Source of the DNA: Chrysochromulina tobinii
Lineage: Eukaryota; Haptophyta; Prymnesiales; Chrysochromulinaceae
DNA length: 36,574 nt
Assembly: GCA_001275005.1 (NCBI GenBank)
Contig: JWZX01002989.1
Location: forward strand, 1-36,574
Reading direction: 5' to 3'
Part shown: piece by piece, positions 3,880 to 33,214 of the stretch
Layout: every line of letters starts with the position of its first letter
Position numbering within the stretch: position 1 is the stretch's first letter
Made by a program: the position numbers and the translations under genes
The notes under the pieces: model-generated
Told to the model about the DNA's origin: nothing
Databases searched by the model: none
Seen by the model: only the letters and a program-made list of their open reading frames with translations

Positions 3880-3979
3880 CGTCTTCGCCTCGGCCCTAGC
3901 CCGACGCCGCTCCCTGATGACGTCTGATTGCCTCCGTCATCAGGTACAAGCGTCTTCGCGCCCTAGCCCAACGCCGCTC
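3880..3979. repeat. Hairpin module bracketed by a ~30-bp direct duplication
   Basis: 3880-3912 and 3951-3979 are near-identical (CGTCTTCGC, then CCCTAGCCC, then ACGCCGCTC; the second copy lacks CTCGG). Between them 3914-3943 begins with CTGATGACG and ends with CGTCATCAG, a perfect 9-bp inverted repeat around TCTGATTGCCTC, followed by GTACAAG. The same module forms the 3' ends of several introns in this window. It overlaps the stop region of the minus-strand 832-aa gene, so it sits in or beside that gene's 3' UTR. Confidence 0.7.
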
Positions 3980-7058: not shown

Positions 7059-8025
7059 ATGTTGGACATCGACCTTTTTCGCGTCGACCGGGGCGGCAAC
7101 CCGGACATCGTGCGTGAGTCACAGCGGCGGCGCCACAAGGATGTCTCGCTGGTCGACAAGGTGATCGAGCTTGACACCGAGTGGCGCTCGACCCGCGGCG
7201 GGCTCGACAATGCCAAAAAGGTGTTGAACCAGGTCCAGAAGAAGATTGGCGAGTTCATGAAGAAGAAGGAGAGCCCGCCTCCCGAGCTGATGAAGGAGAA
7301 GCAGGATGCCGATGCCGAAATCACGAAGCTCGAGGCGAAGGAGAAGGAGCTCATCGAGGCGCGCGACAACACGCGCGTGGGCAATCTCGTGCACGAAGAC
7401 GCGCCTCTCGTGGCCGCGCCACCTGCGCAGCGCGGGCTGCCAGCAGACACGCTGCGCCGCTGCCTCATGGCCTCAGGCCTCGCCGAGCCCGTCGCCAGCG
7501 GCACCGTGCCGAGCCGCTCGTGGCGTGCGGTGGGCGACGGCTTGCTGCTCCAGCAGCAGTGGCTCTCTCACGCGCTCGCATTCGTGTCGGCGCGAGGCTT
7601 CGAGTTGCTCCACGCGCCGCTTCAGCCGTGCGCGGACCGGCTCGACAAGCTCGACAAGCTGCGCCGCGGTCGCGGCGAGCAGGGGACTGGTGTCGCTGTG
7701 CTGGCCACACGGCTCGCGACCGATCCGCTCGGCGCGTTGCATGCATGCAGGTGCGCGGATGGCCCATTGCCACTGATGGCGTGGATTGCCTCTGATTGCC
7801 CCTGATTGCCCCTGATTGCCCCTGATTGCAACTGATTGCAACTGATTGCAACTGATGGCGTGGATTGCCCCTCTACTTACCACACTGAGCGCGATGGCTC
7901 GTCTCCTTGCATGCAATGCAGCTGCCTACCGCCCACCGAGCTGCCACGTAGCTATGCCCTTCTGCGACCATATTTGGATAACTCTTCGTCGTCCTCCGCA
8001 GCCCTCGTGAACGGCGGTGGCGGCA

Positions 8026-9203: not shown

Positions 9204-10406
9204 TCACTTCCACAGCTTCTTGAGCGACGTGTTCTTCTCCGAGTCCTTCTTCATCACCTTGGCGACCGCCATCTCGAAGTCGTCCTGCGTCACGTGCACG
9301 CGCCGCTCGCGCAGCGCGAACATGCCCGCCTCCGTGCAAACGGCCTTGGTCTCGGCCCCGGAGGCCTCGTGCATCGACTTTGCAATCTTGCGAAGGTCGA
9401 TGCCGCGGGTCAGGTTCATCTTGCGACTGTGGATGGTGAGAATGTCGAGGCGCGCGTCCTCGTTCGGGTTCGGGAACTCGATCTTGCGATCGATTCGGCC
9501 CGGCCGCAGCAGCGCTTGGTCGAGGATGTCAATGCGATTCGTGGCCATGACCACTTTAATTTGGTTGGTGGCCTCGAAGCCATCCAGCTGGTTGAGGAGC
9601 TCGAGCATCGTGCGCTGGACCTCCGAGTCGCCGCCGGACTCGCCGTCCTGGCGCGCGCCGCCGATCGAGTCGATCTCGTCCATGAAGATGATCGAGGGCG
9701 CATGCTCGCGCGCCATCACGAAGAGCTCCCGTACCATGCGGGAGCCCTCGCCAATGTACTTTTGGACCAGCTCGCCGCCCGAGACACGGATGAAGGTGCA
9801 ATCCGTGTGGTGGGCGACCGCGCGCGCGAGCAGCGTCTTGCCTGTGCCTGGCGGGCCGTACATGAGCACTCCCTTGGGCTGCGCGATCCCTAGAGACTCG
9901 AAGAGCTCAGGATGCTTGATCGGCAGCTCGATCACCTCCTTGATCTCCTTGATCTGCTTGTCGCAGCCGCCAACCATGTCGTAGGTGGAGTCGGGCACCT
10001 TCTCGACCTTCATGAGCGACACGAGCGGGTCCACCTTGGATGGCAACACCAGGTGCAGCGCGTACGAGTCGTTGCGCAGTGCGACGCGGTCATTGACGTT
10101 GAGCTTGCCGATGTCGATCGACTTGTCGATGTCGACGACGTACTTGCCCTCCGGGTGAACCTTGACGAGCACCTTCTTACGCCCCATGATCGCCACGAGC
10201 TCGCCCACGTACGAGCCCGGCTCCTGCAGCAGCGACAGCTCCTCGCGCAGGTGGCGCACCATGGAGTTCAGCTCATTGCGCTGGGCCTCGAGACGACGTA
10301 GGTTTTGTGTGCGCTCGCGCACGATGACCTCGAGCTCCTCGATCTTGGCGGCGTAGTAGTTCTGGATGCCGCCCGAGGCGGACGTTGGCGCCGCCACCTT
10401 GGCCAT
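9204..10406 (-). CDS. RPT6: 26S proteasome regulatory ATPase subunit Rpt6 (PSMC5)
   Basis: 400 aa, intronless, start at ATG 10404-10406 ([13 protein letters not shown]). Rpt6 is one of six AAA+ ATPases in the base of the 19S particle; it unfolds ubiquitinated substrates into the 20S core. N-terminal coiled coil about 15-62 ([20 protein letters not shown]), OB region about 65-125, AAA module from about 145. Walker A GPPGTGKT is at 184-191, Walker [10 protein letters not shown] follows, and the arginine-finger segment [14 protein letters not shown] is intact. The C-terminus [10 protein letters not shown] is typical of Rpt6 rather than other Rpt subunits. The frame continues in phase to another ATG at 10646, adding 80 residues that lack homology to Rpt6; the shorter start fits the family. 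Confidence 0.96.
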
Positions 10407-10936
10407 GGTCTTGAAGGGAAAGGGGTCGCGGCGCGGCGGGGAGAGGACGTGTGCCTCTTCACGTGTGCGTCGTGTGAAGTGCGAAAGCGAGGGCGCGTGG
10501 CCAGAGGCACAGTGGATGGGGGTGCAGAGCGAGGGGGAGTAGCTGTTCAACACAACGCGATCGGTCAGCCCACATGATGATGGAGGCAAAAAGACGGCCA
10601 GGGCTCGTTCGACACGACCTGGTGCTCCGCTGCCACCCTCGCTCATGTCTTTATTCTATACTTTTTAGCGATACCTTTAGAGCCCGCACCCGAGTTTCAG
10701 ATTGCGCGCCGCTCGGAAAAGCTGACGGCAATTTTACGCGGCGCGACGTATCAACGTACACGAAATTTTTTCAAATTACTGGACTGAGGACTGAGATCGA
10801 TCTCATGACACTCGTGAATACGATTCGACACGACACTTCACTTTGGGCTGGCGCTCACTGGTAGCCTGCAGCAGCAGTCTCGGCTGCAGCCAGGCTCGGT
10901 TCCGGCTCGCCCGCCGGACCGGCGCAGCAGCTCGCG
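10407..10936. promoter_or_regulatory. Divergent promoter region, Rpt6 and NLR-like gene
   Basis: 530 bp between the start codons. An AT-richer island around 10645-10675 (TTTATTCTATACTTTTTAGC) is the best core-promoter candidate. No clear CCAAT or operator motif was seen. Confidence 0.35.
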
Positions 10937-13900
10937 ATGCGCTTAGTACTCGGGAGTGCTCGGGCGGTCGCCGTGGTGGCCCCGTCGTCGCAGCAGCGCT
11001 CGCTTCAGCGTCTGACGGCGGCCGCGTTGCACAAGACGGCGACGACCAGCATCTTGCGCCACGGCCAGTGGATAGTCGTGGGGGCCACGCGCCCGGAGCG
11101 CGAGGCGGCGGCGCGGGAGGCTGTTCAGGTCGTGAGGCCTTGGCTGCTCTCGGGCGTCGACGCCTCTGCGACCAGCAGCAGCAGCGGCGGCGGCGCCGTC
11201 GACGGCGGGGGTGGCGGCGGCCTTGGCCTCGACCGCCCCCCGTTGTTGAGCTTGCGCGAGGAGCAGAAGCAGGTGATGCTCAACGGCGCCCACGTGATGG
11301 CCAGCGCGATGGGTGCCGTGGCACTCACGGCGACGAGCGCGGCGGAGGCTGCGCGCACGGCGCTGCTCCTGGCCGCCGTCGTTGCACGCCTTGCGCTGGG
11401 CGCAGGCCCGTCCGGTTTGCATGCAACGCTCGAGACGACGCGCGGCCTCCAGTTTGGCGTGGCCAAGGCGAGCGGCAGCTCGTCCGACGAGAGTCGCCAC
11501 GCGCCCAAGCCGCCCAAGCTCGCCATCTCCGCCAAGGACAAGGAGAGTTCGAAGCTCCCAAGCCCACCCCGACCTCCATCGGAGAAGGAGGACAAGACGA
11601 CCAGGAGTGCACCGAAGCTCAACAGCGCGCGCGGCGCGAGGAAGGCGGCGGACAACAACCCTCTAGGCGGCGGCTCCAGTAGCGCGCGCGGAAAGCCTGC
11701 GGAGAAGAAGAAAGAAGGGGGCGTCTCCGAGAAAGGGACCCCCCGCTCCGCCGCCACGTCGAAGCCGTCGGTGTCGCTGCCACCACCCCAAGACGGAAAG
11801 CCGAGCTCCGCTGCGCCGCCGTCGGGGGCCGGCGGAGGCGCCTCTGCTGCGGCCCCAGCGCCGAGCGCGCGTGCCATGTCGGCGCCAAGTGCCAAATCCA
11901 AGGGACCTACGGCTTCCAAGGGCGCGCCTGAGACGAAGAAGCTCGAATTGTATCTCGAGCCGGAGGTGCCCAAGCCGGCGGGGTTGGTGTACCAACCCAT
12001 CCCGCCCTTGCCCGCAAGCATCAAGAAGCCCCCGGGCGTGCCGATCATCTCGCCGGCGGGCACGCGTCCTCGTGGGCGACAGGACGGCGCGCCATCTCGG
12101 CACGATCTCGCACCCACCGATCGGATCGGGTGGGCGCTCCTCTTCAACTGCTTCAAGGCAAAGTTTGAGGTGCGTCCGAGTGCTCCTTTCTGATGGCCCT
12201 ATCCGAGGACCCTTTCTGATGGCCTCCTCTGATGACGAGCACCGATTGGCTCCCTCATCAGGTGATTTCGGGCGACGCGACGCTGCTCTCGGACCACGAC
12301 CCTTTCGATCTCAAGGGACCCAGATCGGGCACGTCGATCGGTCGTATCAAGATCGCCCCTGCGAAGGGGACCCCTCTGGTCGAGCGCGTCGAGTTTTCGA
12401 ACGACTGGCTCCTGGCCGATCTGCATGGCGTTCAGCATGACTACTACCAAGGCGAGGGCACCATTGATCTCAAGGTGGAGTGGCGCAAGGAGACTGGCGG
12501 TGTCGAGTCGATCATGATTCGCGTGACGCCCTGGCTCGCGTACGCGTGCTCGGTTGGGTGCCGCATGCAGCTGCGCAAGCCGGGTGAGGCCGAAGGTCGC
12601 ACGTGCACGGTGCAGCGCGTGCTGCCGGACGATCGATGCGTGGTGCGGGTCGACGGCCTCTCCGGCACCGACCCTAAAAAGGCAGTCGGTTCGGCCGAAG
12701 ACGTGGTCGATGCCTCGCCCTCCACTTGTGTGCCCACATCGAATCGTCGCTACCCGGCGGGCGCGCGCCTGCTCGTGCTGCACGAGGCAGCGTGCTCTGA
12801 CGCGGTCGTCGAAGATTGGGGAGGCCCAATAGGTGTGCTTGGCACGGCGCTCGGCCCCATCCCTCGCAACTGCCCAAGCATGCATGTGCTCACCACGGCA
12901 CCACGTCCCGGCTGGACAGATCCCAAAGAGTGCCCAAGCATGCATGTGCTCACCACGGCGCCACGTCCCGGCTTGACAGATCCCAAGGAGGGCTCGCGGC
13001 ATCGACTCTGGCTCGCCCAGGGCGGCGCCGTCTTTGGCTGGGTCACTTGCAAGACGACAAGCAACATCAACAACCTGATCCCCTCGGGAATGGAACTACC
13101 CGAAACCCTCCCTTCGGAGCTCAACCCGCTCAGCCCGACAGAGGTCACAGTTCCGGCAATTCAGGCCGAGATTGAGTTCACTGTGGGCAGCCTGATGCAG
13201 GTGCGCGCGCCCACCGGCCACGCATGAAGCGCCGTCCCGAGCGTGCGCGCACTCGAAGCGCCGTTCCGAGCGCCCGCATGATGCACTGCTGCTCACCGAT
13301 CCCTCCCCCGCCCTGATTCGGCAGGTGGTCACCCCCCAACCGCTTGTGATGCGTGCGGGCTGCCATCTCTCGACCGCGCGCGTGGGCGTCCTTCCACTCA
13401 AGACGGAGGTCCGTCTGCTTGAGATCCGGATGCACGACGGCGGGCTGCGTGCCCGGGTCGAGAGGGTCGCTGCCGAAGAAGACGCCGTCGTGATCACCGC
13501 CGACCTGAATGATGTGAATCACAGTGTGCAGCGGTTCACCTCTGCCGCAGAGTACGAGTCCGCACGCTGTTCGTACTGTGACGAGGCTCGGAAGCAGCTT
13601 GAGTATGTAGAGGATGCGATCACGGGATCCGACCTGCCCATCGCCGAACAAGTGATCTACGTCAACACGAGCGAGTACGTCGATGCGGCCAAGAACATGC
13701 GTCCCGAATGGAAGGCCATCAAGGAGGGCATCGATATGGTCGAGGTGCGTCTCCAGCCCACGCAACGCCGTCCCGAGCGCTCGAAGCGCCGTATCGAGCG
13801 CCCGCAAGCACCTTGGCATCTGCTCAGCTGATCCGTCCCCTCCCCCCCCTGGAATCCCCCCCCCCCCTGGTTCACCCTGGGTTGGCAGGTGCTCCTCAAG

Positions 13901-16900
13901 GCTTCGAAGCGCCGTCCCGAGGGCATGCACCTGGCGCAGCCCGGCCTGGTGGTCGCCGGCCCAGGCACGGGCACCACCTGGATGGTTCGTCAGATCGTGC
14001 ACTCGTGCGCGACGAAACTCACCGATTCGGATGCGCTGGGTGAGGGCGGCGTGCGCCTCGTTCCCGTGATCGTCTTCGTGCAGCGCATCGTCCGCCTGCT
14101 GCGCGACACGGGCACTGACCCATGGAACGTCGTCAAGAAGCGGCGCATGATGATCTGGTACATTGAGAATGAGTTCCCTGGCAAGTCCATGAAGCTCTTC
14201 CGCGACTGCCTGTGCCAAGCTTACGACATGCGCGCGCTGGTCATCCTAGTGGACGGTGTGGATGAGGCCGCCTCGCTCAGGCTGCATGTCGAGGAGTTCA
14301 TCCACTACGAGCTCGTGCCCAGTGGGAATCGGTTACTGGTCACCTCGCGTCCGGAGGGCATTACCATGCCCTTGTACCTGACCAACTTCGCCGTGGTCTC
14401 GCTCCGTCCGCTGACGGAGAGCCAGCAGCGTCGGGTGGCGCAATCGCAGATGCGCGGATCGGCGTTCTATGAGCACCTGGTCGCCATCACCGCCGCGCGC
14501 AAGCGGCAGGACGAGCTCTGGCAGGAGCACTACCCCACCGAGGCGGTGCGCACGAAGCTCGAGTCAGTCGAATTCACACCGAGCGCGGCCGATTCTACCG
14601 GTCCCTCGCTCTTGATGCGCACAAGCCCGACGCCCAACAGCGACTCGACGCCACCACTCTCCCCCGTGACGCCTGAGCGCAAGAAGATGCAGATCATGAT
14701 GGCCAAGGGCTCCGAAATCGAGGAGCAGACTGCCATTGATACCCTCGATCAAATCATTCGGTCGGTCGCGACCGAGTCGGGCATGGCGCCCGACGACGTC
14801 GAGAATGCGCTGTCGTGGCTTGACGAATCTTCGGCTGACCGCATGCCGCGGAAGATGGAGATGGAGGAGGACATTGCGGCCTTTGCGCGGCTCGAGCTGC
14901 GCGGCGAGGAGATCTACACTGCCGTGCTGATGAAGCTCATCGACGGCGTCGAGGTCGAGATCGTGTATGGGCCCGACCTCGACGAGAAGGAGAAGCAGCG
15001 CCTTGCGGTCTTCGCGCCCGAACGGCTCGCCGCCATGCTCGACAACAAGGCGAAGCTCACGCTGCTGTACCTCGAGAATCGGTTCGCCAAGTTCGACCCA
15101 ACGCACACGCGCGACATTCTGACGTACCTCAAGATGCGTTACAAGGGGCAGACGCTCTCGTGCGAGTTGCAGCTCATCCACACCGAGATCTTGCAGGTGA
15201 CGGAGCGAATGGACACGTACTCGCACCTGCGCTACTTCCGACTGCAGGCCGCTCTCAAGCTCGAGCCAGGTGCCCTCATGCTGCCCCCTGCCGAGCTCGA
15301 CAAGAAGTTCGAAAAGTCGTTGCTCTTTGCCGAGGAGGCGAGTGGCGTGCCCGTGCTGCTCTCCATGTTCGTCCTCATCCTCGTCTCGGGCGCGGATGAT
15401 CTGGCGGCGCTCCCCACCTCGCGCCTCGAGCTGTACCAGACGGCGACGGACTCGGCGCTGCGCCGGCGCATCAAGCGCACGCTGCAGGTGGCGCCTTTGA
15501 TCGCCTCTGATCGCCTTTGATGGCCTCTGAGTGTACTGGGAGGCCATCTGCTTGCATTTCGGCGCACGGTGCAGGGGGGTGCCCTTGATCCTCCTTGATT
15601 GCCATCGATCGCCACTGATGAGCTTCGTCCGTGTGCAGGCGCCCAAGGAGGACCCCGCGGCGCCCAAAATCAAGAAAGATCAGAGCGACCCCGCCAAGCC
15701 CCTGGCGGCGACGGATCCCAAAGTGGCCGAGGCGGCCAAGGCGGCGGAGGAGAAGGCGGCGGCCGAGAAGGCGGCGGCTGAGAAGGCGAAGGCGGAGGCG
15801 CTTCTGGCGCTCGCGGCCCAGGCGGTGGCGACCAAAGCCGACGAGGGGGCCAAAAAAGGCGTCAAGGAGACGCCGAAGGAGAAGGAGAGGAGGGAGAAGG
15901 AGAAGGAGAAGGAGCTGCTGAAAGAGAAGGCGGCCAAGGAGAAAGAGCGAAAGGCGGCTGCCGGCCAGGCAACGCTCAACCTTGCCGGTGCGATTCCGCA
16001 GAAGCTCGAGCCGTTGAAGGGAGAGGAGTCGGTGGTGGCCGTGCATGCCGTCACGATGAAGATCCTCGAGAAGGTGCGCAACGGCGACAACCTTCGCGAC
16101 TCAATCCAGCGCTACGTGCCCGAAGGCAACAAGCTGCGCCCTTGGGTCAAGGCGCTCGTCGAGACGGCCCTCGAGCCGGCCAACTTGTCGGCGCAGCCGT
16201 GCGGTCTGCGGATGCTCCGACGCATTGCCATCGCCAATCAGGAGGCGGGCAGGCGTGAGTTCTCCTCGAAGGACGTGGCGCTCGTGCTCTGCTCACATGG
16301 CGATGAGCTCATCCTGTGGTTGCGGCTCGAGCAGGTGCGTCCACTGATTGCCTCTGATTGCCTCTGATTGCCTCTGATTGCCACCCTAATCTTTGGATGC
16401 GGCACGAGCAGGTGCGCGGATGGCCTCTTGATGGCCTCTTGATGGCCTCTGATGGTCTCTGATGGCCATCTGATTGCCTATAAAGGCGTCTCATCACGCC
16501 TCCTCCTTTGAGCACGGCTCATGAGCAGAACCAAGAGTACGGCGTCGCGCTCATCAAGATGCTCGAGCCACCGACGGACACGCTCCCGGCGGTGTACCAG
16601 TTCAAGCATCTCTCCTTCCAGGAGGGCTTGTTCGCGGAGCATCTGCTCTCCGTCGTCGAGGACCCTTCCTGGACTGGCTGGGATAACGATGTGGTCGCCG
16701 CCGCCTTTTTGAACAACGCGTACATGAACAACACGTGCCGCATCGCGGCCGGCCAGCTGGGCACCTTGCTGGCCAAGCGGCGCAAGGCTTGGAAGTTTTC
16801 GGTCGTTGAAGGCTCAAGTTTGGGCATTGTGGGCCGGCGTGCGCTCTGGTACTTGCTTGAGGGCAACGAGACGCTGCAGATGCTCGACCTGAGCGGCAAC

Positions 16901-19900
16901 GGTGTCGGATTGGAGGACGGCATGGGCATCGTCAACCTGCTCCGCAGCTGCGCGGCGCTCAAATCGCTCGACTTGTCCGACAACAGCCTCGATACCCTCA
17001 AGCGTTCACAGCTCTCGGCTGTGTGCCGCTCGCTCGGTGGGAACGTGAAGCTGACGGAGCTCAACTTGTCGAACAATCGTCTGGGGTCGGACGGCTGCAA
17101 ATCGATCTGCACCGCGCTGCAGGGGTGCATCTCCCTACGCTACCTCGGCCTGAGTCACAACCAACCGATGCGTGAGATGGCGCTCCCGAATCTTCTCCAG
17201 ACTCACAAGTCGCTCACGGACATTTCGATCGTCGAGGCGGACTCGAAGTGGCTCGACAGCCGCGCCAAGGACAACATTGGGCAAGCACTGCTCCAGAACG
17301 AGGGTGGCAAGCTTTCCTTTTGCGAGTGCGACTCGTTTGCGCTCACTCCGGAGACCAAGTCGCTCATCTGGACCTCTTCTCTCCCGGCGGATGCAGTGCT
17401 CCTCGCGGGGGTGCTCAAGACGAACACGACGCTCACCTCGTTCGCGTCGGCGGCGGGCAACAAGCTCAACGACGCGAGCCGCGCCGCTATCGGGCGGGCG
17501 CTGCTCCAGAACAAGAACGGTCGCGTCGGCTTCTGCGACGAGCTCGGACTGCGCGAGGGGGTCAAGTCGACAGAGATCGACCTCTCCACGTCCTTTCACT
17601 CGGTCGAGGCGTTCATGTTGCTCGCGGGCGTGCTGCGCGCCAACCGCACCCTCACGTCGCTCACGATGAACTCGCTCAAGACCGAGCACATCGAGCCGCT
17701 CGCCGAAGGCCTCCGCTCCAACTCGACGCTCGAGATCTTGAGATTGCAATCCTCATCCAACAAGGCCGGCCCGGGCGGCAAGCTCACGGTCGTGACGCTC
17801 CCAATCCAGCTGCTCAACGGTGCGCTCCAGCAGCCGATCATCGACCTCTCCTCCGCGGGCACCCTTTCGCGCGTCTCGTGCGCCGTCGTGGGCGTGCTCC
17901 TCGCCGAGAACAAGACCGTTCAGACCCTCAAGCTTTCCAAGACAGGCCTCGGCTCGGTCGTGCAGGCCGAGGGCGGCAGCATCATCTTCGATCCGCTCTC
18001 GGGCGGGGAGTCGACCCTCTACCAGCTCGACCTGTCGGAGATGGAGCTCGGCGACAACGGCGGGCGCAAGATTTTTGAGGCGCTCCTCACCGGCCGCTGC
18101 CGACGGATCACATCGCTCATCCTCTCGTCCAACGGCCTCTCGGACGAGACCGCGCGCGTGATGCACCAGCTGCTCCAGAATAACGAGGTGTGCACCCTCA
18201 CCTCGCTCGACCTGTCGCACAACATCATCAACGCGGGCATGCTCTCGCGCGCCATCAAGCGCAACACGACGCTCAAGTTCCTCAACGTCAAGGGTTGCGG
18301 GCTGAGCGAAGAGTCGCTCAGCGACATTGGCGACTACCTGCTGGGCGACGACTGCAAGTGCGTGGATGGCCCCTGATGGCCCTTGACGGCCCCTGATGGC
18401 CACTGATGCCCTCTGGTGCCCACTGATGCCCGCTGATGCCCACTGATGCCCACTGATGCCCACTGATGCCCACTGATGATGGCTGATGGCTGATGATGGC
18501 TGATGATGGCCGCTGACGAGCTCTGATTGCGCCCATCATCAGGTGCCGACTGGGCCAGATCCGATGTGATCTGTTCGAGATCGAAGACGGAGCGACGCAT
18601 CTCGAGCTCATCTCACGCAAGCTCTCGGTCGCCACCTCGCGCGTCCTCTTCGGAGTGCTCAAGCACAACACGTCACTCAAATCCGTCTCCATCCTCGGCT
18701 GCGGCATCGACGCCGAGGGCGCCAAGGCGCTCGAGATGGCGCTCTCGACGAACACCTCGATCACGCTCATCGACTTGTCAGGTAACAAGATCCACACGAG
18801 TTCGGAAGGCGTCCAGGCCCTCACGCGCGCCGTCGAGCGCAACAAGCGGCTCGAGAAGATGATCCTCGACGGGCCCGGCTCCGATCTCGTCTTCAAGGAG
18901 CTCCGCGTCGCCGCGCACCTGAACATGAACGGGAAGCGGCTGCGGCTGCTATCGGGGCGCCGTGATGGGCGCCCTCGTCGCCCCGAACCTCAACCTCACC
19001 GATTTGAACCTCGAGAACAACGAATGCCTCGGACCGGTGGGCGCGAACGCCATCGCGGTCGCCCTCACGCAGCGCCAGTCGACGCTCAAGTACCTCAACC
19101 TCGCCGAATGTGGTCTCGCCGGATCCAGCTCTTGGGAGATCACGACGGCGCGCTCGGAGCGCTCAGCTACTGGCGAGGACGACGAGCCGGTCGGCGGCGC
19201 TCGGAAGGAGGACTTCCTTGAGCCCGAGGCGCCCCTTAAGCGTGAGAAGCGCGTCAAGAACGTCACCAACGCCACCAACGCCACCAAAGGGTCGAAGAGC
19301 GATGCCAAGGTGGACGAGAAGCCCCTCGAGTTCGATAAGTTCAAATCGGATCTGGATATCAAGACGCGCGCGCAGCTGACCGAGCTCATGGTCTCCATTG
19401 GCCAAATCTCGACCCTCGAGTCGTTGACGCTCGACAAGAACGCTCTCGCGGACGCCGAGTCGGCGCTCCTCACCCCGATCGGAAAGCTCTACAATCTGCG
19501 CTCGCTCTCGCTCTGTGGGAATCGTCTGACCGAGGTGCCCTCTTCCATCGGCTCCTTGCGCTCTCTGCAGGAGCTGTTGTTGCGCTCGAACCAGCTCAAC
19601 GAGCTTCCGAACGCCTCGATCGGGCTCCTCGGGTCCCTCGAGAATCTCGATCTCAAAGGCAACCAGCTCACGTACCTGCCCGACTCGATCGGGCAGCTGC
19701 GCACTCTCAAGTCGCTCGATGTGTCCGAGAACAAGCTGACCGAGCTACCGGCTTCCTTCGGCCTGCTTCGCGACACGCTCAAGCTGTCCGTCTCGCGCAA
19801 CCCGCTCCAACGCCCGCCCCTCTCGGTCGCGCGCCAGGGCATCGATGCGATCCGTCGCTACTTCAATGAGCTCAAGAAGAGCGGATCGACGACGAGCCGC

Positions 19901-22624
19901 GCGGCGCGCCTCGTGCTGCTTGGCGCGGGGCTCGCCGGCAAGACGTCGCTACAGCGCGGGCTGCGGCATGGGGCGGCGCGCCCAGCCAAGCTCGACGAAC
20001 GGACGATCCAGCTCGACATCCACACGCTACCCCTTGGCTCGGGCGCCGAGCAAGTCGTTCTCTCGATGTGGGATTTGGCCGGCCAGCCCGAGTACGCTGC
20101 CGGGCTGCAGCCGTACATTGTGCCGGGCTCCCTCTACCTGCTTGCCGTGCCCGCGCAGCTGTGCGCGGACGAGCACTACCCCGATGTGCTCGGCCGCTGG
20201 CTCGACTACCTTCAGGCAGGCGCGCCCGAGGCCGTGGTGCAGGCGGTGCTCACGCACTGCGACGAGCTGTTGCCCGAAGGGACTGCAGGCAAGGGGAACA
20301 TGTCAACGTCCGCGCTCGAGGAGGCATGCGAGCTCCAGGTGCGCTGGGTGAAGGAGAGCATGCGGCGGCACCAGGGCAACCTGCCCGCGGGCTCGAAGAG
20401 GCTGCTCATCCAGGACGCCGTGCCGTGCGTGTGCGCCGTCGCGGGCGGCGACGCTTCCCTCGCCAACCTGCGCTCACGCCTCGAGGCGATCGTGCTGGCG
20501 AAGCCGCCGCTGCTCCCTTGCATCGGAATGGCGATCCCGCGAACGTGGATCCTTGCGATGGGCTTCCTTCGCGCGCTTCGGGACGGTCGAGACCCTGTGG
20601 CCGTCGTCACGCAGAACTCGCAGCCGGAGGCATCGGCCGAGCGAGCCGTGCCGTACGTGCCGCTCGCGGATGCGATCCAGCTCTGGGTCGATGTGGTCGC
20701 CCCCAAGCTGCAGGTCGCGGCCGATGGCCAGGCGATCGAGGATACGCTCCAGGTCCTCGTCAATCAAGGCGAGTTCTTCGCGTCGAGCGGCATCATCTTC
20801 TTGCAGCCCGACTACGTGACGCGGCTACTCAAGCCGCTCGTCGACCATCGCGTCAACAAGGTGAACAAGGTGGCGGAGACGAGCCTTGGCGGGACGACGA
20901 TCCTTGGCTTCACTATCAAGGATCCCGTGCGCGTCGCGCTTCTCTCGTCGGCGGTGTCCACGTTTGTGGGCAAGGGCGACCTGCGCGAGGAGCTGTTGCC
21001 GTTGCTCTGGGAGCCTGTCGGCCTGCATGAGGACGACTACGGCTCAGTCCTCATGATGCTGTGCGCGAGCGGCGTCCTCTTCCTCGCCGAGCACACGCAG
21101 CAGGGGCGCAAGTGGATCATGCCGATGCGCTTGCCCGAGACACAGCCAGCAGAGCAGCTCGCCAAGTGGCATCGTCTGCGCACGTCCCCCGGCATCGAGC
21201 AGCTCGGCGTCGTGTACCCGCTCGGCGCCCTCGCCCCCCCGGGCATCGCCGAGCGGCTCATGTCGCACCTGTACGGGTTCGGCAAGTACCACGCGTTCTG
21301 GAAGGGCGGCACCCTCATCGAGACGCGTGTGCACAATGCGCTGCTGCTCGTCGAGCTGCGCACAAGGGACGGTGGCCAGGACTCGAGAGAAAGGCACCAG
21401 GATTTACACGAGCTCGTCCTCGAGCTGCGCGGGCCCAAAGCCCAGCGGAGCGACCTGTTCGCGCTGATCCTCAACGTGCGCAAGCGGACAGAGGTGCTGC
21501 TGCACGACTTTCCTGGGCTGCTCATCGCGGGCAAGCTCTCGTGCCCGGGGTGCGTCTTTGACGCGAAGCACTCGTTCGACCCGTCGCGCTGGGCCCTCGA
21601 TGAGGTCACTAGCCGTCCGCAGACCTGCCGCAAGTGCTCCGAGAACGTCTCCCTCGAAGGCGTCAAGATCAGCCAGATCGACGAGATGGGGGGAGGTGCG
21701 GAGGAGATTTCGCTCGCGCTGCCCTCGCGCGAGGGGATGAGCGTTATGAATGAGAACAAGTACGTGGGGGAGCTGCTCCGGCTCGGAACCCCAATTGAGG
21801 CGAGACAAGGGATCCACCGGTCTCTCAACGTGTCCGGCAAGCTGCTCTGGGAACGCTTCTCTGAGGGCGAGGAAGCCATCCTCAATGAATTCATGCAGAA
21901 CATTTCGCAGGAGCGTGATGCGATGGGCTGGTCGGACGGCGACTGGCTCCACTACGTCCTCTCGCAGACCGCCGACGAGCGCACGCTGCCTGTGGGCTAC
22001 TCGTCGACCAAACTCGATAAGGGGCACAAGGGCATGGCGCTCGACGACTTTTGCAAGCACCCGATCGCGGTGGGCGCGCGCCTCGACCGCGCCCACGTGC
22101 TCGCGCTGCGACTCTACTCCACCTCGGTCTTCCGATCGATCAACCGGCCGCTTCGCGAGGCGCGTAAGCATCCGTACCCCGCGCTCGTCTCACGCCTCGT
22201 CGACGGCATCGTCAGGCTGCGCGCGTACCAGTCTCAGAGTGATGTTCAGCGCACCTACGAGTTCTGGCGCGGGATGCGGGTCGAGGCGAGTGATGAGTTC
22301 TTCGCGCGCGGCACGACCGAGCTCGCCTTCTCGCCCACAATGCGCACTGAGCGCAAGGTGGCCGAGAGCATGGTCACGAAAGATGGCGCGAACGCGTCCG
22401 TGCTCATTCGGCTCCAGCTGACCATGAAGGAGGCGGGTGCCGATATTTCGTGGCTGAGCGTCTTCCCCGGAGAAGGAGAGTTCCTCTTCCCTCCGGGCAC
22501 GTACGTGGAGCCAAAGCCCTCGCGTGGAGCGACGATCCCTGGCGCGGTCCGCGTCATCGACGGCTTGGTGCACGTCAAGGAGCACCGAATCGAGCAGCTC
22601 GCACCGCGCGAGGCCTCCCCATGA
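10937..22624 (+). CDS. NLR-like giant protein: NACHT NTPase, LRR, Roc-COR and ADP-ribosyltransferase domains
   Basis: CDS join(10937..12169,12262..13200,13325..13744,13889..15487,15639..16334,16529..18357,18543..22624), about 3,598 aa if one extra base near 18929-18961 is skipped. Residues 1-411: low complexity, Ser/Pro/Lys-rich. 412-864: beta-rich segments and a conserved YVEDAITGSDLPIAEQ region. From 865: NACHT-type NTPase with PGLVVAGPGTGTTW (Walker A, Lys replaced by Thr at about 893), LVILVDGVDEA (Walker B) and NRLLVTSRPEG (sensor). 1398-1500: A/K/E-rich charged insert, then a winged-helix-like part. About 1740-2500: RNI-type LRRs; 2510-2660: LxxLxLxxNxLxxLP repeats. About 2690: Roc GTPase with GAGLAGKTS, WDLAGQPEY and THCD, then COR. 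CPGC (21542-21553) and CRKC (21626-21637) form a possible zinc site. C-terminal ADP-ribosyltransferase fold: FWRGM, AFSPTM and FPGEGEFLFPP, an R-S-E arrangement ending in E-x-E. Inferred role: immune or self/non-self receptor whose GTPase and LRRs gate NAD-using modification of targets. Start is the first in-frame ATG; the 5' end is the least certain part. Confidence 0.8.
12170..12261 (+). other. NLR-like gene intron 1
   Basis: 92 nt, phase 0, GTGCGT donor. It contains two copies of CCTTTCTGATGGCC and ends with the module CTGATGACG...GATTGGCTCC...CTCATCAG, after which exon 2 starts GTGATT. Confidence 0.85.
12833..12979 (+). other. Possible in-frame cryptic intron in NLR-like exon 2
   Basis: GGTGTGCTTGG at 12832 can act as donor and TTGACAG at 12979 as acceptor. 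Removing 147 nt keeps frame and joins EDWGGPI to DPKEGSRHRL. The segment includes most of a 60-bp tandem repeat and no stop, so it can also be translated. Each repeat carries an acceptor-like GACAG, 60 nt apart. Which form is made cannot be told from sequence. Confidence 0.4.
12871..12990 (+). repeat. 60-bp tandem repeat, two copies, in frame
   Basis: TGCCCAAGCATGCATGTGCT starts copies at 12871 and 12931. They encode two nearly identical 20-residue units beginning CPSMHVLTTAPRPG and differ at about four bases. Confidence 0.95.
13201..13324 (+). other. NLR-like gene intron 2
   Basis: 124 nt, phase 0, GTGCGC donor, GGCAG acceptor. Contains AAGCGCCGTCCCGAGCG and CGAAGCGCCGTTCCGAGCG, closely matching intron 3 and the coding start of exon 4 (SKRRPEG). 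It lacks the CTGAT decamers. Confidence 0.8.
13745..13888 (+). other. NLR-like gene intron 3
   Basis: 144 nt, phase 0, GTGCGT donor and TTGGCAG acceptor after a C-rich tract with two homopolymer-like runs. Contains ACGCCGTCCCGAGCG and TCGAAGCGCCGTATCGAGCG, related to intron 2 and to exon 4 bases 13911-13925. Confidence 0.8.
15488..15638 (+). other. NLR-like gene intron 4, decamer type
   Basis: 151 nt, phase 0. The donor is GTGGCG and the acceptor GTGTGCAG. It holds TTTGATCGCC/TTTGATGGCC units. The exon end GCGCACGCTGCAGG recurs inside the intron as GCGCACGGTGCAGG (about 15560-15573), making two consecutive intron-like units. Confidence 0.8.
16335..16528 (+). other. NLR-like gene intron 5, two tandem intron-like units
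   Basis: Phase 0. Unit one starts GTGCGTCCACTGATTGCC, has four CTGATTGCC decamers and ends GCGGCACGAGCAG at about 16411. Unit two starts GTGCGCGGATGGCC, carries TTGATGGCC/CTGATGG units and ends GGCTCATGAGCAG. Both ends echo the exon end GCGGCTCGAGCAG. The acceptor could also be one codon upstream at 16525. Confidence 0.75.
18358..18542 (+). other. NLR-like gene intron 6, decamer type
   Basis: 185 nt, phase 2, GTGCGTGGATGGCC donor. It consists of CTGATGGCC and CTGATGCCCA decamers, then GGCTGATGAT units, and ends GACGAGCTCTGATTGCGCCC followed by ATCATCAG. Splicing continues the LRR reading frame. Confidence 0.85.
18929..18961 (+). other. Apparent +1 frameshift in NLR-like exon 7
   Basis: LRR coding runs in one frame to about LNMNGKRLRLL (18955) and continues in the +1 frame at GAVMGALVAPNLNLTDLNL (from about 18953). 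The second frame opens after a TGA at 18926-18928. No GT-AG pair in this short stretch would repair it, so one base is extra (or two missing), by mutation, sequencing error or recoding. Confidence 0.75.
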
Positions 22625-29112: not shown

Positions 29113-30509
29113 TCACTCGAGGTCAGGCCAAGAGCCAGACTTCTTCTTGAAGGTCGCCTCACGCAGTCCGCCCGAGTCGACAGACCATGAGCCCAAGCGC
29201 AGCTGGGCATTGGAGCCGCCCACCCTGGCGCCTCCCTTGCTCATGGCGCCATAACCGCCACGACGCTCGGCGGTGGCGTCCGCATGGGCGGATGCCTGCG
29301 CGGGATCAAGAGCCGGCTGCGGCTCGGCATCGTCATCTGACGAACTCGGCCCGTCGTGGATGGCGAGTCGATCTGCGCGATCTGACGATCTCGGCCTTAA
29401 TCTCGGCCCGTCGTGGATGGCGAGTCGATCTGCGCGATCTGCGCGATCTGCCATGCCCAACACGGAGCCCATCATCATGTTCGAGGACGGTGCGAGAGGC
29501 AGATCCGCGCGCTGTGCAAACCCCTGAGCTTTGGCGAGCGCATCCAAATCGATCGAGAGCCGATGGCTGTCTTCGGCCTGGTCCTCGCACGCCATCCCGA
29601 GAGCACTCAGGCCCCCGGGGTAGCCAAAGCTCATACGATGGTGGCTCACTGCATGGAGCTGATGGCTGCGCTCGACCTGCGAACCGAGAGTAAAGGTGAC
29701 CAAAGGTGAGCAAGGGTGAGCAAAGGTGAGCAAAGGAGGGTTAGAGAGTCAGACGGGAGGGGAGGGCCAGGTGAGTGGCGAGCCAGCATGAAGGGTCAAG
29801 CGGGCGGGTGGCGACTTGCCTGTAGGATGAGTTCCTCCATCAGCAGCGCCACCGCGCCGCCTGTGTCCTCTTCGTCGCCCGCAGGGCCGAGATTATGCCA
29901 TGGTTGATCGGCGGCGGCGAGCACTGTCGCGAACCCTACCGATGATGGTGTTCGACGCCCGCTCTTTTTGCGAAAGGTGGCGTCGCGCATGCCGCCCGAG
30001 TCCGACCACGAGCGCACGGCGGCACGCGCCGACTGCGGCCGCTCGTCCTCGTCGTCATCGACCTCGAGGCCGGTTAGCTGGCGCGCAAAGTTCGCCGACT
30101 TCGGCAACGCCTTCTTCAGCGGCAGCGCCACCAGCAGTCCATTGCTGCTGCTGCTGCCGCCGCCGCCGCCGCCGCCGACGCCGCCGCTACCGAGCTTGCC
30201 GTAGCCACCGCCGCTCTTGACCACCGGTTTGGCTAGGCCGCCGTAGCCACCGCGTGCTGCCACAGGCCGCTCCGTCGCTGGTGCAAGCGCCGCCGCCGAC
30301 GACGGAGCGATTACGTCCATCTGCATAGGTGCACAATCGCCCGCCTTCACGTCCCTCGAGCCAGCGGCTGCGGCCGCGAGAGTGCTGCGGTTGGAGCGCG
30401 GGCTCGCCTCACTGTTGTAGAAACTTTCATGGAAGGAGCACTTGGGCGCCATGTGGGAGTCAACCCGCGCCTTGATGGCTTGCTCGGCAGGAGACTCGTG
30501 CCCGACCAT
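29113..30509 (-). CDS. 417-aa protein with duplicated SDSGG-ATF-KKSG motif, function unknown
   Basis: CDS complement(join(29113..29676,29820..30509)), starting at ATG 30507-30509. Each exon encodes one copy of a motif: RGGYGGLAKPVVK...SWSDSGGMRDATFRKKSG in exon 1 and RGGYGAMSKGGAR...SWSVDSGGLREATFKKKSG in exon 2. The motif ends each domain and in exon 2 is nearly C-terminal. Other parts are low complexity: a Gly/Ser run in exon 1 and two DRADRLAIHDGP repeats in exon 2. The Ser/Thr next to basic residues suggests phosphorylation sites; no enzyme fold or membrane segment is seen. The conserved motif is not one I can name. Divergent from the FAD enzyme across 111 bp. Joining the two frames rests on in-phase splice sites and the shared motif; two separate genes are less likely. 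Confidence 0.65.
29345..29443 (-). repeat. 57-bp near-tandem repeat in the 417-aa gene
   Basis: CTCGGCCCGTCGTGGATGGC starts copies at 29345 and 29402. In the minus frame they encode the two RADRLAIHDGP units. Confidence 0.9.
29677..29819 (-). other. GC-AG intron of the 417-aa gene
   Basis: 143 nt, phase 0. On the minus strand the exon ends CTACAG and the intron begins GCAAGT, a textbook GC donor, ending TTCGCAG. The interior has four GGTGA(G/C)CAA(A/G) units on the plus strand (about 29694-29742). It lacks the CTGAT decamers of other introns here. Confidence 0.75.
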
Positions 30510-30620
30510 TCATCAGCAGCAATCACAAATCCGCACGCGATTTTAGTCCAATGGAGCTCAGAAGGATTGGCTGAATTGTATTCTGTGGTTCATTCAAAAC
30601 TTCCATATTGCAAGCAATCA
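30510..30620. promoter_or_regulatory. 111-bp bidirectional promoter with two CCAAT boxes
   Basis: CCAAT at 30548-30552 and ATTGG (CCAAT on the other strand) at 30566-30570 lie in the middle of the gap between the divergent 417-aa and FAD genes, one box facing each gene. The region is AT-richer than the neighbours. Confidence 0.5.
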
Positions 30621-33214
30621 ATGGTGTTCTCTTTGGTTGCCCTTTGCAGCGCCTTCCTGGCGCCGCAGGCGCCACATCGACTGCCACTCGTTACGCCTCT
30701 AGCCGCGACCGCAGCCATTCGACGTGCTGGCGCCATCGTTCGCATGCGCACGCTCGAATGGCGCTTGTTTGGCGTTGAGGTGCCAGTGCTGGAGTCTGGG
30801 CCTGACAACCTGCTCAACGTGTCGTCGGCGCTGCATCGCGCGGTCGCCCAGCAGCTCAGTCTGGAGCCGGAACGGCTGCCCATCAACAACGTCCACCTCG
30901 TTCGCCAAAGCCTCGACGCGCGGCCGCGTGGAGGGCGTCGCGGCCGCAGCGGCTCAGGGGACAGCGACCGCGACGTGTGCTGGTCGCACGTTGTGGACGT
31001 GACGCTCACGCCCGAGCAGGCGAAGCGCATCAAGGCACAGCCCGGGCGTATCATGCCATCTGCGGAGGAGCGTGTCGCGCCTTTCCTTGTGCCGCCGCCA
31101 CCAAACCAGGCTCTGGACAAGGCGAGCGCGGGTGGCGCAGCAGCCTCCTCGGCGGCATCGCACGTGCTCGTGGTGGGCGCGGGTCCGTGCGGCCTCTTCG
31201 CCGCCCTGACCCTCGCACGCGCGGGCGTGCGCGTCACGCTCCTCGAGAGAGGCAAGCCAGTCGAAGAGCGAGGTCGGAGCATCGGAGCCTTGATCCAGCG
31301 TGGGGTGCTCGACCCAGAGTCCAACTTTTGCTACGGCGAGGGAGGGGCGGGTACGTGCTCCGACGGCTAGCTTGATATGCTCGCGCTTGAGTGCGCCTCG
31401 GAGTGCCCCTCTGAGTGCGCCCGATGGCCTCCACCATCAGGTACGCCATGCCGCCCTAGTTGCCACTGATTGTGATTGATTGCCACTGATGGCCTCCACC
31501 ATCAGGTACGTGGTCCGATGGCAAGCTCACCACACGCATTGGTCGCAACTCGGCGGCCGTGAGGGCGGTCCTGGAGACCTTCGTGCGCTTCGGCGCGCCA
31601 CGTCGCATCCTATACGACGGCAAGCCCCACCTTGGCACCGACGCTCTAGTTAGGTTGCTCAAGCGCTTTCGACAGGAGCTCCTCGGCTTCGGGGCGACAG
31701 TGCGATTTGATTCACGCGTGGATGAGCTCGTGCTCGAGGCGGGTGGGGGCGCGGCGGGGGGGGGAGCTGCGCTCGAGACGGGGAGGGGCGCGGCGGCAGA
31801 GGCACGGGTACGTGGGCGCGTGCTCGGCGTGCGTCTCGCGACCGGCGAGACCATCCTTGCCGATGCCACCCTCCTCGCCGCCGGCCACTCGGCCCGTGAG
31901 CTGTATGAGCAGCTCGTGCAGCTCGGGGCATCGGTGATGCCCAAGGACTTTGCGGTGGGCTTTCGAATCGAGCATCCGCAGACGACGATCAACCGCGCTC
32001 AGTATGGGCCGATGGCAGACTATTGCGAGGACGGTGGCAAGGGAGCTCTACCGCCCGCTTCGTACCGCCTCACAACCACCGTCGCCGAGGACGCCGAGGG
32101 TGGCGACGAGGGCGGCGTCCAGCGCGAGGGTGAGGCCAAGGTCAGTCCCATCAACAAGCTGCGTGGCGGCAAGCCGCGCGGTGGCAAGAGGAGCACCGGC
32201 CGTGCCATTCACACTCCTCTTGCCATTCACACCGGCCGTGCGAAAGCACCCAGTGGCGAGGGCGGTGGCGGTGGCGGCGGTGGCGGTGGCGGCGGTGGCG
32301 GTGGCGGCGAGGCCGATCCCCTAGCACGCGGTGTCTACTCGTTTTGCATGTGCCCGGGCGGTCAGATCGTGCCCACAGCCATTGAGCCTGGACGTCTCTG
32401 TGTCAACGGCATGTCGTATTCGAACCGTGGCTCCAAGTGGGCCAACTCGGCCGTCGTCGTGTCCGTCGGAGCGGCCTTCGGCGACTTTGACGGCTTTGGG
32501 CAGGCTGGCGACGCATCCAAATTAGGGCAGGCTGGCGACGCATCCAAATTAGGGCAGGCTGGCGACGCATCCAAATTAGGAGGTACCCAAGCGGCCGATG
32601 GCGGGGCGACCGCGCCGCCCAAGGCCCTGCCCTCTCATTTGGATGCGACCCCTGTGACCAACGCGCCACCGGCCCCGCTCGCCGGGATGTGGTTTCAGGA
32701 GGAGATGGAACGGCGCGCGGCCCTCATGGGTGGCCCCGGGCTCTTGTGCCCGGTGCAGCGCGTCTCCGACTTTCTGCGTGGCGAGATTTCGTCTGCACCG
32801 CTCCCGCCATCGTCGTACCGGCGTGGCGTCGTGTCGGCGCCGTTGCACGAGCTCTACCCCGCGCCCATCACAGCGGCCATCCGGGTGGCCCTCCGCCGTT
32901 GGGGCCGGTCCATGGAGGGCTTTGACGGCGACGAGGCGCTGCTGCACGGCGTCGAGACCCGCACTTCGGCGCCCGTCCAGATCACGCGCCACGCGCCAAG
33001 CTGCGAGTGCGTCGGGCTGCCCGGTCTCTACCCGGCAGGTGAGGGTGCTGGGTATGCGGGCGGGATCGTCTCCGCGGCGGTCGACGGCATGCGAGTCGCC
33101 GAAGCGTTGCTTGCGAGTGGAGCATTGCGCGCCGAGGATGGCGAGGTGGCCACCGTCGCCGGTGGAGGCACCGTCACCACGAGCGCGACGGGCGGCGACC
33201 GCGACTACGACTAG
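30621..33214 (+). CDS. Plastid-type FAD-dependent oxidoreductase (COG2509-like dehydrogenase)
   Basis: CDS join(30621..31350,31506..33214), 812 aa. The ATG at 30621 gives MVFSLVALCSAFLAPQAPHR, a signal peptide whose cleavage region has AF-AP, the phenylalanine motif of complex-plastid targeting, then a basic transit-like stretch. An N-terminal domain (TLEWRLFGVEVPVLES to SHVVDVTLTP) precedes the Rossmann FAD site VLVVGAGPCGLFAAL at about 182-196. After it come GEGGAGTWSDGKLTTRIG across the splice junction, FGAPRRILYDGKPHLGTD and the closing GLYPAGEGAGYAGGI at about 748-762, the order of FAD-dependent dehydrogenases of the COG2509 group. Low-complexity insertions interrupt the catalytic domain: a Gly run at about 495-513 and three GQAGDASKL repeats at about 574-601. 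Substrate unknown. The upstream in-frame ATG at 30429 overlaps the neighbour's coding region and is unlikely. Confidence 0.85.
31351..31505 (+). other. FAD-oxidoreductase intron with duplicated exon sequence
   Basis: 155 nt, phase 1. Bases 31350-31367 (GGTACGTGCTCCGACGGC) match 31505-31522 (GGTACGTGGTCCGATGGC) at 16 of 18 positions: the left copy now serves as donor, the right as coding DNA. Inside, GATGGCCTCCACCATCAG followed by GTACG occurs at 31423-31445 and 31488-31510, so a second acceptor lies at 31440; using it brings an early stop. Confidence 0.9.
32498..32578 (+). repeat. 27-bp tandem repeat, three exact copies, in frame
   Basis: Units begin at 32498, 32525 and 32552 with GGGCAGGCTGGCGACGCATC and encode GQAGDASKL. 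Identity of the copies implies recent expansion. Confidence 0.97.

Follow-up and report, generated by a model that had tools for sequence, protein, structure and literature searches.

A single-chain NACHT, Roco and ADP-ribosyltransferase gene in Chrysochromulina tobinii: an NLR-like half joined to a Roco half in an algal family

A stretch of DNA from the haptophyte Chrysochromulina tobinii raises the question of whether domains otherwise known from separate signalling proteins are carried on one chain and, if so, what such a protein might do. The window analysed here is the whole of contig C1830 (JWZX01002989.1, 36,574 nucleotides) of a 53.15-Mb assembly in 2253 contigs. Within it we describe a gene on the + strand, running from the ATG at 10937 to a stop codon ending at 22624, with eight exons, seven GT...AG introns of 92–194 bases and ~3549 encoded residues, in which NACHT, leucine-rich repeat (LRR), Roc GTPase and ADP-ribosyltransferase (ART) modules follow one another. 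We read the gene as encoding a single chain of ~3550 residues, belonging to an algal family which combines an NLR-like half with a Roco-ART half and whose most likely use is signalling or defence under biotic stress; we give this reading a probability of about 55%.

The architecture can be read from sister copies elsewhere in the assembly, where all match counts are lower bounds: there are at least 73 matches to the NACHT exon and at least 59 to the Roc-COR-ART part. On contig C523, one stop-free frame of 3355 residues runs from the second half of a conserved N-terminal domain (the N-domain) through NACHT, the HLSFQE motif, RNI-type LRRs, a second set of LRRs, Roc, COR and a CxxC pair to the ART, and on C684 one frame of 3100 residues spans the N-domain to the CxxC pair. 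Judged by eye from the place and strand of the matches, N-domain, NACHT and Roc lie in the same order and on the same strand on nine contigs (C1830, C1000, C1912, C523, C1859, C2149, C684, C2221 and C1720). An ART match lies behind Roc on eight of the nine, the ninth, C2149, stopping at the contig edge; it reaches the E-x-E region on C1830, C1000, C1912, C523 and C1859, and only the first part of the domain is matched on C684, C2221 and C1720. The first-pass annotation of this DNA had proposed one polypeptide with NACHT, LRR, Roc, CxxC and ART in this order. The C523 frame, the nine contigs and the junction alignments described below agree with that order, and we take the fusion to be real and the protein to be a single chain, as read from the DNA in the relatives and from the splice junctions in the window gene. 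The annotation had omitted the N-domain and the second LRR block before Roc.

Two adjacent genes, one NACHT-LRR and the other LRR-Roco-ART, which only seem to be joined, would be a most improbable account of the locus and one close to refuted for the family, both halves being within one frame on C523 and the N-domain to the CxxC pair within one frame on C684. What speaks for two genes is that the halves also occur separately: P0066 shows the NACHT and LRR part but neither Roc nor ART, and P0009 is an LRR-Roc-ART protein without NACHT, although it starts within the LRRs, has an ART score of 21.9, just under the cut-off, and is possibly a fragment. Contig C1825 has a Roc-COR match and is not among the NACHT matches, its far end being cut by the contig edge. 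P0015, a metagenome protein of 1553 residues and another Roco protein with built-in enzymes, runs from LRR, Roc, COR and CxxC to a trypsin-like domain and then an ART. C1990 (14740–24516) and C2119 (52653–61520) have the same N-domain/NACHT/LRR half, closing with sequence that resembles the LRR-Roc junction; where Roc-COR-ART would be expected, however, there is another N-domain, followed by a NACHT that lacks a P-loop. The C-terminal half thus appears to be exchangeable between copies, which is a new observation. Since the halves are found apart (P0009, C1825, P0015) and exchanged (C1990, C2119), the fusion appears to have brought together two modules that can also stand alone.

The splice junctions of the window gene were examined by aligning the spliced protein with 129 sequences (116 database proteins and 13 frames from assembly DNA), a junction being counted as gap-free in a relative if no gap fell within 10 residues of it. 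The gap-free sequences include frames read from DNA at junctions 1, 2, 4 and 7, as well as at the frame change in the last exon; at junctions 3, 5 and 6 they are database proteins only, which are possibly splicing-predicted themselves. Exon 1 (10937–12169) contains the start codon, an Arg-rich N-terminus, a hydrophobic stretch at residues 143–161, a low-complexity region and the start of the N-domain (SRHDL, residue 387), and the homologue P0036 can be aligned with it from residue 1. Across intron 1 (12170–12261, 92 bases) 19 of 25 crossing relatives are gap-free, including five assembly-DNA frames. Exon 2 (12262–12832) completes the N-domain (PWLAY...TVQR.L.DD) with sequence that is conserved across the family. 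Intron 2 (12833–12979, 147 bases) is in frame; a seven-exon model, in which this stretch was coding, was replaced on comparison with the relatives. With the intron removed, the window protein reads DWGGPIDPKEGSRHR, compared with DWQGPIEPKEGSRHR in P0036, and 13 of 43 crossing relatives are gap-free. The Pfam, NCBIfam, assembly and PDB searches of the N-domain stretch used 12262–13200 with intron 2 read as protein.

Exon 3 (12980–13200) is likewise defined by comparison with relatives across its junctions, and is separated by intron 3 (13201–13324, 124 bases; gap-free in 5 of 30, best in P0036 and P0106) from exon 4 (13325–13744), a linker preceding the NACHT domain. After intron 4 (13745–13888, 144 bases; 40 of 74), exon 5 (13889–15487) encodes the NACHT NTPase with its helical/winged-helix part. 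Junction 5 (15487/15639), which removes intron 5 (15488–15638, 151 bases), is the least supported, with one gap-free sequence among 14, because a low-complexity insert comes after it; by eye, RTLVAPKEEP in P0105 can be set against RTLQAPKEDP. Exon 6 (15639–16334) contains this Lys/Glu-rich insert and the post-NACHT region, and is followed by intron 6 (16335–16528, 194 bases; 7 of 43). Exon 7 (16529–18357) encodes the motif FKHLSFQE (16601–16624) and the RNI-type LRRs, and beyond intron 7 (18358–18542, 185 bases; 12 of 13) exon 8 (18543–22624) holds the last RNI LRRs, the second LRR block, Roc, a COR-like region, the CxxC pair, the ART and the stop codon.

That the frames can be spliced into one protein, as had been suggested, is upheld by the eight exons and seven introns, except at one place which is not an intron: inside exon 8, the reading frame shifts at about 18945–18956 without an intron. 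Fourteen relatives align across this point, 12 of them gap-free within 10 residues. P0001, a metagenome protein of 1319 residues which stands for 268 member sequences and is 99% identical, reads through the frame change, as does P0017, a more distant protein (80%). The frame change is not the end of the gene, and is most simply read as a rare allele or as an error of the assembly. A separate gene in the frame 18929–22624 was considered and is ruled out by P0001 and C523.

The NACHT motifs lie in exon 5: a P-loop, GPGTGTT (13958–13978), a Walker B motif, LVDGVDEA (14246–14269), and LLVTSRPEG. We call the domain NACHT because the Walker B, SRPEG and FKHLSFQE motifs are present, with LRRs after them, because the paralogue on C684 is above the cut-off for PF05729 (26.9 bits with its neighbours in frame), and because PF05729 is precomputed on 15 of 86 homologues, including a Prymnesium parvum protein. 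HLSFQE is a winged-helix signature of NACHT proteins. The P-loop of the window copy, GPGTGTTW, is without lysine and does not fit the pattern GxxxxGK[ST]. The motif PGTGx[ST] is found in 88 of the 129 relatives, some of which may be represented twice, as a database protein and as an assembly frame, with lysine in 85 and threonine in three (P0036, P0104 and P0106). These three are 86%, 97% and 78% identical to the window over the aligned residues of the NACHT domain and, as close relatives over this domain, are taken as orthologues or alleles of the window gene. The lysine-to-threonine change, newly recognised here, is common only to the window copy and these three closest relatives, and is old, with the NACHT domain retained. 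The ATP switch is probably disabled in the window copy, which we regard as a probable pseudo-NACHT member of a family resembling receptors.

The loss of the lysine, the frame change in exon 8 and the loss of a serine in the ART (see below) would all fit a decaying pseudogene of the family. We regard this as improbable, however: P0001, which stands for 268 members and is 99% identical, is not interrupted by the frame change, the more distant P0036 (86%) and P0106 (78%) keep a NACHT domain with the same lysine change, and third-position GC is 0.75–0.88 in the exons preceding the last.

The motifs that the first-pass annotation had quoted were all found in the sequence. Several LRR families are above the Pfam cut-off in the window exons. 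The second LRR block (19307–19825; LRR_8, LRR_14) ends in the LRR-Roc junction NPLQRPPLSVARQGIDAIRRYF and leads to the Roc GTPase (19907–20263; GAGLAGKTS, WDLAGQ, THCD), which scores 36.9 bits with PF08477 (cut-off 27) and has the G1, G3 and G4 motifs. In a Pfam scan of the genome (E ≤ 0.001), Roc is found at eight of the nine loci, the exception being C1720. The best PDB matches to the LRR end plus Roc are entries named ‘Leucine-rich-repeat protein’ and ‘Rab family protein’, which we take to be of Roco type, followed by LRRK1 and LRRK2. A COR domain had also been proposed, and a COR-like region is in place (20264–21535), with COR-B detected only in relatives (P0003, 28.1 bits; C1000, 25.4 bits, cut-off 27) and COR-A only in P0015. 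The CxxC...CxxC pair (CPGC, CRKC; 21542–21637) is a probable zinc site.

The ART domain (22055–22498) scores 22.5 bits with PF01129 in the exon search, marginal against a cut-off of 22.3, and 26.3 in the genome scan. A family profile compared with the PDB matched nine sequences at E up to 1, the best being XopAI (E 3e-4), with Vis, an arginine ADP-ribosyltransferase, at E 1e-3. Mono-ADP-ribosyltransferases of the R-S-E type have a catalytic arginine, an STS serine and an E-x-E motif. The arginine in LALRLY and the E-x-E in GEGEFLF, presumably the catalytic residues of the window ART, are kept, and the STS position reads SPT in the window and in P0001, the usual serine being missing; several relatives have STS-like letters here. 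Identity to the window over the ART is 64–70% in P0002, P0003 and P0004, lower than the 78–82% over COR. The window ART is probably weakened.

Profile matches in the assembly number at least 34 for NACHT, 54 for Roc and 38 for ART. Many of those to the Roc profile, in frames of 200–300 residues, are probably small GTPases. Some of the ART matches lie in long frames (up to 6180 residues, on C2239). For a genome of this small size, the ART repertoire is large.

The N-domain ahead of NACHT is conserved, with at least 28 matches in the assembly when the N-domain stretch is used as query. It has no Pfam match, and a PDB profile search gave three matches at E 0.6–1.6, which is chance level; this conserved domain appears to be new, with neither a Pfam relative nor a convincing one in the PDB. 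The first 60 residues contain nine arginines or lysines in the window protein and ten in P0036, with two acidic residues (D/E) in each, and a hydrophobic stretch comes after them, the whole region being 10937–11420 in the window. A basic N-terminus followed by a hydrophobic stretch is seen in organelle-targeted or membrane-tethered proteins. P0066 starts with MGCGASS, and starts of this type are like those of lipid-anchored proteins.

How might such a chain work? The family would have originated when a receptor-like half of N-domain, NACHT and RNI-LRRs was joined to a half made of LRRs, Roc-COR, the zinc pair and the ART. The LRRs would bind a ligand, the NACHT half would assemble the protein, the Roc-COR pair would act as a GTP-driven dimer switch and, with autoinhibition released, the C-terminal ART would attach ADP-ribose to a target. 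We infer these sensor, assembly, switch and effector steps, and the defence role of the family, by analogy, the chain of steps having precedents in NLRs, bacterial LRR-Roc-COR conflict proteins and brown algal LRR-ROCO proteins. A self-contained sensor, switch and effector had been proposed for the window gene itself, and the architecture agrees with this; because its P-loop lysine and STS serine are lost, however, the window copy is hardly a good candidate for a complete sensor-effector gated by ATP, and the copies on C523 and C1859 would fit the idea better. Most likely, the window copy would work as a non-hydrolysing partner or scaffold, with Roc its only intact switch. A more specific and tentative proposal is that these are single-chain algal immune receptors with two nucleotide switches (NACHT and Roc-COR) between the sensor repeats and the ART, in which the C-terminal half is exchanged and intact and pseudo-NACHT members pair as sensor and helper.

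Several points weigh against a signalling or defence role under biotic stress, or against the domain calls on which it depends. In the Pfam search of the window exons, which had been recommended as a check, Roc, ART and LRRs are above their cut-offs, but NACHT is below (PF05729, 20.8 bits, cut-off 26.7) and COR has no match. At the nine loci the genome scan finds NACHT on C684 only and the ART in the window only. When a NACHT profile was compared with the PDB, the 29 matches were all weak (best E 0.0045); they included AAA-type ATPases among others but no NLR, which tells against the NACHT call. The ART of C523 is just under the cut-off at 21.0 bits, and in C1000 and C1912 one E of the E-x-E is a D. 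Decay could also account for the weakened P-loop and STS motifs of the window copy. A PADLOC search of three exon translations gave no match, and Roco proteins also have non-immune roles. No diversifying selection was seen in the segments of the paralogues tested, and the ratios of non-synonymous to synonymous substitution (dN/dS) cover the N-terminal half of the paralogues, not the window gene or its ART.

In that half, dN/dS between C684 and C1225 is 0.13–0.37 in all eight segments, lowest where NACHT starts, and between C684 and both C2221 and C1912 it is 0.17–0.68 in 15 of 16 segments, the remaining one being saturated. The C684/C1225 pair of sister copies is under purifying selection in the N-terminal half. 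For a receptor that evolves fast, the absence of diversifying selection is a neutral or slightly unfavourable sign. This absence would suit a non-immune Roco signalling scaffold, acting in the cell cycle, trafficking or stress, with NACHT as an assembly platform and the ART as a self-modifying regulator. The P-loop change of the window copy would also suit a scaffold, LRRK1 and LRRK2 are among the PDB matches to the LRR end and Roc, and Roco proteins have varied signalling roles in other eukaryotes. We nevertheless consider such a scaffold rather unlikely, since a multi-copy family with exchangeable C-terminal halves is more typical of receptors than of housekeeping scaffolds, and since stretches with NACHT (at least 34) and ART (at least 38) are many in the assembly.

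The window protein has its closest parallels in several known systems. Like animal and fungal NLRs of the STAND class, it has a probable NACHT domain with Walker B, an SRPEG-type motif and HLSFQE, with RNI-type LRRs after it; unlike them, it has an N-domain without known relative in front, an LRR-Roc-COR-ART module after the LRRs and no P-loop lysine. The ART resembles mono-ADP-ribosyltransferases (PF01129; XopAI, Vis) in its R, E-x-E and surrounding pattern, and differs in its fusion to receptor-like switches and in the lost STS serine. Bacterial LRR-Roc-COR (AP-GTPase) conflict proteins have variable C-terminal effectors; they share with the window family LRR, Roc, a COR or COR-like region and an effector-type domain in the same position, and several copies per genome, whereas the window protein has a NACHT-LRR half ahead in the same chain (PMC8195603). 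In brown algae, LRR-ROCO and NB-ARC-TPR proteins are candidate immune receptors; the former, like the window family, are algal LRR-Roco proteins for which immunity and a shuffling of parts are proposed, but they are simple proteins averaging 1203–1269 residues (PMC11378527). The string ‘adp-ribosyl’ is absent from the text of that paper. Among the matches listed in the open-licence literature, including the available portions of PMC11378527, PMC8195603, PMC7159879 and PMC9334734, the order NACHT-LRR-Roc-COR-CxxC-ART is not described.

The homologues with a named organism include one from a haptophyte (Prymnesium parvum), two from dinoflagellates (Prorocentrum and Effrenium) and one from a diatom (Cylindrotheca). 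The P. parvum protein AB1Y20_002506 (P0066) has a related NACHT, HLSFQE and RNI-like LRRs (43% identity over 62% of the query), but differs in its length of 1139 residues, in its N-terminus and in that its listed domains include neither Roc nor ART. Scans for NACHT in viral and in bacterial and archaeal contigs, and for the ART part in viral contigs, confirmed no relatives, although such scans can pick up only relatives that contain the search patterns; an origin from viruses, or a recent one from bacteria, is therefore not supported. In NCBIfam searches of five exon translations, LRR-type matches were rejected as far below the curated cut-offs.

To our knowledge, how single-celled algae sense viruses and parasites within the cell is largely open. 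The family described here would combine the hallmark NTPase of animal and fungal receptors with a Roco switch and an enzyme of its own, and leads to a direct prediction, testable in laboratory algae, that infection turns on ADP-ribosylation. If the proposed mechanism is true, it would provide a natural example in which one nucleotide switch follows another, and in which the LRR-Roc-COR-effector plan of bacteria is combined with an NLR-type half.

The surroundings and introns of the gene show some further features. Of ten neighbouring frames scanned with Pfam, clear matches come from two loci, a proteasomal-type AAA ATPase (9207–10655, − strand) and an FAD-dependent protein (~30237–33211), and the window is therefore ordinary nuclear DNA; an Rfam scan of the window gave no match. 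A 60-base tandem duplication (two copies, 12871–12990), lying mostly within intron 2, repeats its acceptor region, so that an alternative acceptor is possible. In four of the seven introns (1, 3, 4 and 7, starting at 12170, 13201, 13745 and 18358), the exon after the acceptor starts with GTG, the same letters as at the donor, a pattern like that of recently gained introns flanked by a short target duplication; the sister frames read from DNA are intronless across junctions 1, 2, 4 and 7. Introns 5, 6 and 7 contain a 10-bp minisatellite, CTGATNGCCN, at 15497–15617, 16344–16461 and 18363–18515, and the same repeat occurs elsewhere in the window at 3914–3936, 7782–7854 and 31466–31498. It has 27 matches in the window (up to three mismatches), all on the + strand, compared with 0.00 expected from 100 shuffles. 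With 2142 exact matches in the assembly against none for the reversed-pattern control, it is a genome-wide repeat, found here within introns.

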